From a bacterium (GTDB lineage Bacteria > Actinomycetota > Acidimicrobiia > Spongiisociales > Spongiisociaceae), in assembly GCA_028821235.1 (NCBI GenBank), contig JAPPGV010000149.1, forward strand, positions 1 through 49,184: 49,184 nucleotides of DNA, given 5' to 3'. The stretch's first letter is position 1. The number at the start of each line of letters is the position of its first letter. This document shows positions 11,215 to 35,628 of the stretch, in pieces. A model generated the notes under the pieces. It searched no databases and was not told the origin of the DNA. It worked only from the letters and a program-made list of their open reading frames with translations. The position numbers and the translations under genes are program-made.

Positions 11215-11297
11215 GGGTATAGCCGGGTGGCGATGCTTAGGATAAACTATCGAATGGTAGGGGCGACAACCGAAGTCATCGCCCGCCACCACAACTT

Positions 11298-11391
11298 GGC
11301 GGGTATTGCCTGTTGGTACAGGACCGGGCTTCACACACTCGGAGCCGAGGAGAGACACCTCCTGGCTGCGGTTCGACTCCGCTGCCCGCCG
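11298..11391 (+). tRNA. tRNA-Sec-like / allo-tRNA candidate (8-bp acceptor, 4-bp T stem, UCA in anticodon loop)
   Basis: A full cloverleaf can be drawn. The acceptor GGCGGGTA (11298-11305) pairs over 8 bp with TGCCCGCC (11383-11390), followed by discriminator G and no encoded CCA. The D arm CCTGT-TGGT-ACAGG has a 5-bp stem with only a 4-nt loop, the hallmark of selenocysteine tRNA. The anticodon arm is CCGGG / CTCGG with loop CTTCACACA, where TCA follows the conserved U33. The variable arm AGCC-g-AGGAG / CTCCT-GGCT forms a 9-bp stem with one bulged G. The T arm GCGG-TTCGACT-CCGC has the same T loop as E. coli SelC. Oddities are the 9-nt anticodon loop (two extra bases 3' of TCA) and a 4-bp rather than 5-bp T stem, giving an 8/4 fold as in allo-tRNAs. 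No selA, selB, selD or obvious selenoprotein is in the window. Confidence 0.7.
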
Positions 11392-11481
11392 CCGTTTCCC
11401 GCAGCCTTGCGAACAAGTGTAGCACATACTCTGTCATTGAAAGTATCCGCCAACGGGTATTTATCTTGGTTTGAGACGGGG

Positions 11482-33304: not shown

Positions 33305-34264
33305 GTGACATCGGAGGCCCCACCGCCGGCCGGTTCCCTCCGTAAGAGGCGGCGGCCGGGCGAGGCGGTGGTACGTGGTCTGCTGTTCATCGCAGCCGCC
33401 CTGTCGATCCTCACCACGGTGGGCATCGTCTTCGAGTTGGGGAAGGAGGCCCTGCTCTTCTTCAGGTCGGAGGAGGCGTCGCTGGCCGGGTTCCTGTCCT
33501 CCACGCAATGGCAACCGGCCATTCTGGACTTCGGGATCTGGCCGCTGGTCCTGGCCACGCTGACCACCTCGGTCACGGCCATGGTGGTGGCGTTGCCGGT
33601 GGGTCTGGCCACCGCCATCTACCTCAGCGAGTACGCCACCCCCCGGGTGAGGGGCACCATCAAGCCGGTGCTCGAGATCCTGGCCGGCATCCCGACGGTT
33701 GTCTACGGCTACTTCGCCCTCACCTTCATGACCCCGCTCCTCAGGTCCATCCTGGGAGTCAGCGTGGTGGAGATCTTCAACACGGCATCCGCCGGAATCG
33801 TGGTGGGCATTCTCATCATCCCGCTCGTCAGCTCGATGTCCGAGGACGCCCTCCACGCGGTGCCGATGTCGCTCCGGGAGGCGTCGTATGCGGTCGGGGC
33901 CACCAGGTTGGAGACCTCGCTGCGGGTGGTCCTGCCGGCTGCTCTCTCGGGTATCACGGCAGCCTTCGTGGTGTCGATCTCCCGGGCCATCGGCGAGACC
34001 ATGGTGGTGGCGATCGCGGCCGGCGCGGGGCCCAAGAACTTCACCTTCGGCGAGGACAGCCTGTTCGGCTACATCCTCAACCCGTTCGTGGCGGGCGAGA
34101 CCATGACCGGGCACATCGTCCGCATCAGCGGGGGTGACCTGAGCTACAACTCGATCGACTACAACTCCATCTTCGCCATCGGCCTGGCGCTGTTCGTCAT
34201 CACCCTGACGCTCAACGTCCTGAGCCGCCGGTTCGTGGCCCGATTCCGCGAGGTGTACGAGTGA
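33305..34264 (+). CDS. pstC: Phosphate ABC transporter permease PstC
   Basis: 319 aa, GTG start at 33305. Six membrane helices are visible, starting RGLLFIAAALSILTTVGIVF. The permease coupling (EAA) loop is MSLREASYAVGATRLETSLR. Conserved stretches are IYLSEYATPRVRGTIKPVLE, ILAGIPTVVYGYFALTFM and ISRAIGETMVVAIAAGAGP. It forms the channel with PstA. The stop overlaps the pstA start as GTGA. The 101-bp gap from pstS, carrying an element remnant, may reduce read-through relative to pstS. Confidence 0.93.
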   Translation: MTSEAPPPAGSLRKRRRPGEAVVRGLLFIAAALSILTTVGIVFELGKEALLFFRSEEASLAGFLSSTQWQPAILDFGIWPLVLATLTTSVTAMVVALPVGLATAIYLSEYATPRVRGTIKPVLEILAGIPTVVYGYFALTFMTPLLRSILGVSVVEIFNTASAGIVVGILIIPLVSSMSEDALHAVPMSLREASYAVGATRLETSLRVVLPAALSGITAAFVVSISRAIGETMVVAIAAGAGPKNFTFGEDSLFGYILNPFVAGETMTGHIVRISGGDLSYNSIDYNSIFAIGLALFVITLTLNVLSRRFVARFREVYE

Positions 34265-35628
34265 CGACGTCCGGCACGGAAGTCAACGGCGGGGCCTCCG
34301 ACCTCCTGCAGACCTCCGCGCAGATGAGGCGCCGGCAGCGCCGGGGACTCGTCGCGAGGCTCGCGCTGCTGGGCGCCCTGATGGTGGCCGTGGCGGCGCT
34401 GGTGACCCTGATCGTGACCATCCTGAACTCGTCGTTCGGCCTGGTGGCCGTGGAGAACGAACGCTCCCCGGGCGAGTTGGTGGCGAGCCGGGGATACCCG
34501 GAGGGCACCGCGCTCGGCGACCTGACCAAGGGGGATCTGGTAGCCCTCCTCGAAGCCGAGATCTCGACCAACCTGGGCCGCCGGTTCGAGCGGGAGCAAC
34601 GCTTCTTCGGCGACCGGATGGTCTTCGAGGATCTGTACGTGCTCAACGACCTGTGCATGACGGACGACCCCCCGCCGGCCTGCTACCTGCCCGCCCGGAG
34701 CCATTCCCAGGTGGAGGCGCTGGTGGTGGAGCGGGTGGTGGAGCCGACCATCGTAGGCACCTGGTCCTTCTTCTCGTCAGTGTTCAGCCGTGACGACGTC
34801 GAGGCATACGCGGCGGAGAAGTACCCCGGCGCGGCACTGGAGTTCCGATCCTGGCTCTCGTGGGACTTCGTGGTCAGCCCGCAGTCGCCGGAGCCGGCGA
34901 TCGCCGGGATCCGCACCGCCCTGCTCGGGTCGCTCTGGGTGGTCCTGATCACCCTGGCCTTCTCTTTCCCCATCGGGGTCGGCGCCGCCATCTACCTGGA
35001 GGAGTATGCGCGCGAGAACCGGCTTACCGCCATCCTGCAGACCAACATCAACAACCTGGCCGGCGTGCCCTCGATCATCTACGGGATGCTCGGTCTGGCG
35101 ATCTTCGTCCGTACCCTGGAGCTCATTACCAGCGGTTCGTTCCTGGGGACGGGCGGTGAGGCGACCGCCAACGGCCGGACCATCGTCTCGGCCGGTCTCA
35201 CGCTCGGCCTGCTCATCCTGCCGATCATCATCATCAACGCCCAGGAGGCGATCCGGGCCGTTCCGGGCTCGCTGCGGCAGGCGGGCATGGCGCTGGGGTC
35301 CACCAGATGGCAGACAGTGCGCTCCCACGTTCTCCCGAACGCCCTTCCCGGCATCCTGACGGGCACCATCCTGGCCGTCGCCAGGGCGCTCGGGGAGACC
35401 GCACCCCTGGTCGTGGTGGGGGCATCGACCTTCATAACCACCGATCCGAGCGGCCCGTTCTCGAAGTTCACGGTGCTGCCGATCCAGATCTACCAGTGGA
35501 CCAGCCGACCTCAGGACGAGTTCCGCAACATCGCCGCCGCAGCCATCCTGGTGCTGCTGGTGCTGCTCCTGACGCTCAACACGGCGGCGGTGATCCTTAG
35601 AAACAAGTATTCTCGGAGGACAGAATGA
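34261..35628 (+). CDS. pstA: Phosphate ABC transporter permease PstA with large N-terminal extracytoplasmic insert
   Basis: 455 aa against about 280-300 in most PstA proteins. Helix 1 (about 33-58, [20 protein letters not shown]) is followed by a roughly 150-residue hydrophilic segment (to about 210). That segment contains [20 protein letters not shown], two Cys in [16 protein letters not shown] and a further acidic stretch. The usual permease domain then follows: [36 protein letters not shown], the EAA loop [20 protein letters not shown] and [17 protein letters not shown]. The insert should face the outside and could bind PstS or a cell-envelope component. Both ends are coupled by 4-bp overlaps to pstC and pstB. 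Confidence 0.92.

Follow-up and report, generated by a model that had tools for sequence, protein, structure and literature searches.

What kind of tRNA is encoded at positions 11298-11391 of the forward strand, and which codon would it read? An earlier note on the window (the whole 49,184-nt stretch of DNA analysed here) had described the gene as a selenocysteine-like or allo-tRNA with a 9-nt anticodon loop, and had suggested either UGA recoding or missense decoding. We compared the gene with its relatives, with the other tRNAs of its host and with known unusual tRNAs.

Fold and anticodon of the tRNA gene

The sequence at 11298-11391 (+) is a genuine but unusual tRNA gene. It is 94 nt long, ends in G73 without an encoded CCA, and combines a long variable arm with an acceptor/T-stem branch of the 8/4 type. 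The minimum-energy fold given by RNAfold is the 8/4 cloverleaf (-47.5 kcal/mol, z -3.5), and 1 of 200 shuffles folded as well. The 8-bp acceptor stem pairs GGCGGGUA (11298-11305) with UGCCCGCC (11383-11390), and relatives carry CG/UA/AU and GC/AU compensatory changes in it. The 3′ strand together with the discriminator G73 occupies 11383-11391. Folding and covariation support a D arm at 11309-11322 (5 bp, 4-nt loop UGGU) and a T arm at 11368-11382 (4 bp, 7-nt loop UUCGACU). Between the anticodon and T arms, RNAfold places a long variable arm of nine pairs with one bulge (11343-11367). This fold agrees with the anatomy in the earlier note, namely an 8-bp acceptor stem, 4-nt D loop, 9-pair variable arm, 4-bp T stem and G73.

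ARAGORN called the gene as tRNA-Val(CAC). The Rfam tRNA-Sec model (RF01852) matched it with E 1.1e-6, and the score of 39.4 bits lies under the gathering score of 47; the covariance-model check proposed earlier thus gave a match, but not one above threshold. The Rfam scan of the whole window returned nothing at gathering level, and the gene was absent from the genome-scan matches of the general tRNA model. Downstream, a pattern scan found a weak terminator-like hairpin (11441-11462) followed by a T-rich tail, together spanning 11441-11472 (+), with 1 found against 0.2 expected. An element similar to that downstream of the gene in the window, GGG(T)WATT..TCTTG, also lies downstream of a second locus of the family (locus B, below).

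The fold is maintained among relatives. Across 8 family members, 96% of the stem cells (acceptor, D, anticodon and T) were paired, and two-sided changes occurred at 5 stem pairs across paralogues, a number reached in 0 of 500 shuffles. The three intact syntenic copies at locus A agree throughout the acceptor, D and T arms (some 50 nt), whereas they differ in the variable arm and anticodon loop and their flanks are 88-95% identical. The compensatory changes and the unchanged arms indicate that the tRNA fold is under selection.

The anticodon arm spans 11324-11342. In the window copy a 5-bp stem leaves a formal 9-nt loop, in which UCA stands after the first U following C32. A sixth pair, here C·A, reduces the loop to the 7 nt UUCACAC. 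In the syntenic copies of two relatives (G003 and G005) the C·A mismatch becomes C-G and closes a 7-nt loop, CUCACAU, with the same CAC; in a divergent paralogue (locus D) the sixth pair is U-A. Every copy aligned has U33, followed in the 7-nt register by CAC, CAG or GAG, and a purine at position 37. Since relatives have C-G or U-A at the sixth pair, the most fitting description of the "9-nt loop" is 7 nt closed by a weak sixth pair, and the anticodon is CAC (Val; 11332-11334). The earlier note had offered this register as its alternative, with an extra C-A pair closing the loop, and the relatives bear it out through the C-G and U-A pairs and the CAG and GAG paralogues. The same evidence contradicts the TCA register.

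Distribution, leader hairpin and turnover of the family

Among 59 relatives searched, the family was represented by 12 full or near-full copies, 1 divergent copy (that at locus D) and 3 fragments, all in the genus of the window. A covariance model run on 138 genomes from the order and on a sample of 395 from the class Acidimicrobiia gave strong matches solely in this genus. The 30-37-bit matches outside the genus that we inspected were canonical tRNAs or tRNA-Sec. According to five records, the family-bearing genomes are Acidimicrobiia MAGs (for example CO36387bin_10, SB0664_bin_25 and RHO1_bin_64), and the isolate names indicate that the host genus is probably sponge-associated. Phages, plasmids and viral contigs gave no match, so a phage or plasmid origin was rejected.

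The family occupies four chromosomal loci. Locus A, which includes the window gene at 11298-11391, lies between a MocR-type regulator and a dimethylglycine-dehydrogenase-like gene. Locus B is flanked by an FAD oxidoreductase and a QueG-like protein, locus C by an MFS transporter and a glucose/sorbosone dehydrogenase, and locus D by an HNH protein and MazG. Conservation in related genomes, which the earlier note had looked to, was found as syntenic copies in G003 and G005 and as paralogues within the genus. Two anticodons occur at locus B: CAG in four genomes (G000, the window's own genome, and G006, G007 and G003) and GAG in three (G002, G005 and G008). Among the examined neighbours of the four loci we found no recurring partner gene, no synthetase and, except for the HNH protein at locus D, no evident mobility protein. 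In G003 (L094), a run of GGTCAGT repeats lies downstream of locus A, between the tRNA and the dimethylglycine-dehydrogenase-like gene, and is absent in the window.

A phylum sample and its follow-up yielded three further 8/4 tRNAs, in an unrelated actinomycetotal family; their sequences are different and they have no evident leader hairpin. These are G487:C78:59900-59994 (L195; loop ~GAG) and G643:C24:37560-37651 (L197; loop ~GCC), both with C33 instead of U, and G799:C31:161764-161855 (L214; loop ~GAC). The 8/4 class is thus present yet rare in Actinomycetota.

The most unexpected feature of the family is a conserved leader hairpin. In the window it is GGGCGACAACCGAAGTCATCGCCC at 11261-11284 (+), ending 13 nt before the tRNA, and each of the four loci carries such a hairpin on the upstream side of its tRNA. 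Over nine sequences, 90% of the cells in its eight core pairs were paired, compared with 25-67% in slid controls, and two pairs are compensatory (G-C/A-U and A-U/G-C). At locus D the hairpin is a perfect 13-bp stem. Its pattern matched once in the window and in 0 of 100 shuffles. The upstream folding energy was not unusual when compared with the regions upstream of canonical tRNAs in the GC-rich G000, so the case for the hairpin is made by conservation and covariation over few sequences. We do not claim that CCCGCC, the 3′ strand of the leader, pairs with GGCGGG, the 5′ strand of the tRNA, as this pairing is partial across loci and broken at locus A of G005 and at locus D.

Copies have been gained and lost. 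In G001, G004 and G009 the genes flanking locus B almost abut and there is no tRNA segment between them, which suggests that the other genomes probably descend from an ancestor that gained the segment by insertion. The locus A gene is absent in G006, G001 and G004, and in G002 only its first 41 nt are left, followed by the same downstream flank. Truncated family copies occur in G002, G005 and G007, and mutations break stems in the locus B copies of G003 and G008. With copies missing or decayed in several sister genomes, the gene itself is dispensable.

At locus B, G000:C27 (L100) and G007:C70 (L098), from two different species, are 100% identical over 1740 bp, to ~53 nt past the tRNA, and 89% identical beyond; this stretch is a recent recombination tract. 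The same locus shows an imperfect tandem duplication (L097 7638-8159 and L098 3837-4357), in which an intact allo-tRNA is followed ~320 bp further downstream by a second, 3′-truncated one. Imperfect direct repeats of 200 bp, which overlap at a spacing of ~135 bp, occur at L100 6620-6960 and also in L096 and L099.

Possible roles in the host

The host genome has a separate tRNA-Sec (G000:C79:40685-40775, 77 bits). ARAGORN on the tRNA loci of G000 showed that the canonical set is complete, including tRNA-Val(CAC), tRNA-Leu(CAG) and tRNA-Leu(GAG). The gene at 11298-11391 is therefore a supernumerary allo-tRNA. We rejected the idea that it substitutes for a missing canonical tRNA because all three of those tRNAs are present. 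In the double label given earlier, the allo-tRNA part stood, on the 8/4 branch, long variable arm, G73 and non-Ser anticodon, whereas the selenocysteine part fell with the 77-bit tRNA-Sec elsewhere in the genome.

The best explanation, to which we give a probability of about 50%, is that the gene encodes a serine-accepting missense allo-tRNA of the 8/4 class that would read GUG and be used rarely or conditionally. SerRS recognises the long variable arm of tRNA. The gene, like the host tRNA-Ser, has G73, G1-C72 and G2-C71, in contrast to A73 in the tRNA-Leu and tRNA-Val of the host. The anticodon is not read by SerRS (PMC7609411). From these identity elements, the variable arm and the indifference of SerRS to the anticodon, we infer serine charging combined with GUG decoding. 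The transcript would be trimmed, would receive CCA and would be charged with serine by SerRS. The earlier note had pointed to possible seryl-tRNA synthetase variants, but G000 has a single full-length SerRS gene (G000:C8:2652-3905), and a second match was weak and far under the cut-off. The 12-bp branch would then let EF-Tu deliver the charged allo-tRNA to GUG codons, with serine inserted for valine, and the paralogues would act likewise at the leucine codons CUG and CUC/CUU. There is a precedent in the 8/4 and 9/3 allo-tRNAs of Silvibacterium bohemicum, which inserted serine at the leucine codons CUC/UUA in E. coli (PMC7609411).

Codon use limits how strong such an activity could be. GUG, CUG and CUC are the commonest Val/Leu codons, at 38.5, 47.8 and 33.5 per thousand in 15 window genes. 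When the window genes were aligned with those of G001 and G004, which are without the family, serine was found at 0 of 1448 GUG/CUG/CUC positions, and at 0 of 466 for GUG alone. Wholesale reassignment of GUG, CUG or CUC to serine was thus ruled out for the window genes tested. Efficient serine insertion should be costly, because these codons are so common and were never aligned with serine. Any missense activity must then be weak or conditional, or lose out to the canonical tRNAs. Missense decoding by this tRNA is plausible; against it count the inactivity in E. coli of some other groups of allo-tRNAs (PMC7609411) and the dispensability of the gene.

As a separate observation on the window, the gene at 34261-35628 encodes a PstA-like phosphate permease with ~200 extra residues ahead of the permease domain.

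A tRNA-like RNA kept for a job other than decoding may also account for the gene, and we regard it as a possible explanation of rather low probability. Such an RNA could donate serine to a tRNA-dependent enzyme, act as a decoy for tRNA-targeting nucleases, or have, as an RNA, a regulatory function to which the upstream hairpin contributes. The hairpin, unneeded for decoding, is conserved at every locus, the gene is extra beside a complete tRNA set, and its target codons are too common for harmless recoding. However, the copies retain the 7-nt loop, U33, purine 37 and genuine anticodon triplets, the anticodon varies solely among Val/Leu codons, and no partner gene recurs beside loci A, B, C and D. 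We make no firm choice between weak or conditional missense decoding and a non-translational role, and the latter is a live rival. It is also conceivable, if unlikely, that the family forms a regulated mistranslation module, in which Ser-tRNA paralogues shifting among GUG, CUG and CUC, each under a leader hairpin, would diversify the proteome under some condition.

We consider it quite unlikely that leader hairpin, tRNA and terminator make up a module, selfish or relic, that has been copied around the chromosome, sometimes through insertion, and is now decaying without a selected host function. The insertion at locus B, whose flanking genes lie almost side by side in G001, G004 and G009, the truncated and mutated copies, the recombination tract and the restriction to one genus would all fit such a module, but the compensatory changes and unchanged acceptor, D and T arms point to selection on the fold, and the HNH protein at locus D is the sole evident mobility protein beside the loci examined.

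That the gene is a selenocysteine tRNA, or a second tRNA-Sec reading UGA, is very improbable and largely refuted: the match to the tRNA-Sec model, the literal UCA after U33 and selenocysteine decoding in the genus speak for it, but the score is below gathering, the branch has 12 bp instead of 13, the relatives contradict the UCA register, and the genome has its own tRNA-Sec. UGA recoding, as proposed earlier, falls on the same two last points. SelA was found in 9 of 9 other genomes of the genus searched; selA had no match in the G000 assembly despite its tRNA-Sec, probably because of an assembly gap.

Comparison with known systems

Allo-tRNAs are among the few natural tRNAs with the potential to break the rule of one codon for one amino acid, and they are useful as a chassis for genetic code expansion. 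A tRNA like this one, seemingly built to carry serine yet read valine codons, could make deliberate translation errors or serve outside translation. In contrast to single metagenomic matches, this family can be studied by comparison, through its multiple copies, orthologous loci, swapped anticodons, empty sites and decayed members, and its conserved upstream hairpin offers something concrete to test.

With the tRNA-Sec encoded by selC (RF01852) the gene shares an acceptor stem of 8 bp, a D loop of 4 nt, an anticodon stem of 6 bp, a long variable arm and G73. The gene differs in having a 4-bp T stem, a 5-bp D stem and a sub-gathering score. Instead of the 13-bp (8/5) branch typical of bacterial tRNA-Sec it has an 8/4 branch, with U-U at the would-be fifth T-stem pair. 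Instead of UCA in a 7-nt loop it has CAC, and UCA would need a 9-nt loop. Its host also has a tRNA-Sec besides it. The selC* tRNA-Cys, too, has a tRNA-Sec-like shape without being tRNA-Sec, but carries U73 and Cys identity where our gene has G73 (PMC7609411).

The Streptomyces tRNA-ProX with ProRSx is likewise from Actinomycetota and is an extra tRNA whose body identity does not match its anticodon (PMC11415595); it gives missense decoding in E. coli (PMC11415595). Unlike our gene, tRNA-ProX has a canonical-size tRNA-Pro body and its own synthetase. The body here is tRNA-Ser/Sec-like, no synthetase was found among the examined neighbours, and there is no second SerRS beside the one full-length gene in G000.

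The closest likeness is to the allo-tRNAs. These have 8/4 or 9/3 folds, are known from Clostridia, Proteobacteria and Acidobacteria, and carry 35 anticodons, among which CAC was seen once (PMC7609411, summarising Mukai et al. 2017). Like them, the gene has a 12-bp branch as 8/4 (folding and covariation), nine pairs in a long variable arm, a long 6-bp anticodon stem (C·A here, C-G or U-A in relatives) and a non-Ser anticodon, and it is extra to the canonical set. Comparison with the host tRNAs suggests that G73 and the long variable arm would give it Ser-type identity. Unlike them, it belongs to Actinomycetota, a phylum not on the reviewed list (PMC7609411), to which the family extends the allo-tRNA class. 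To the known allo-tRNAs the family adds this host phylum, a conserved hairpin upstream at every locus, and a CAG/GAG anticodon swap at one orthologous locus.
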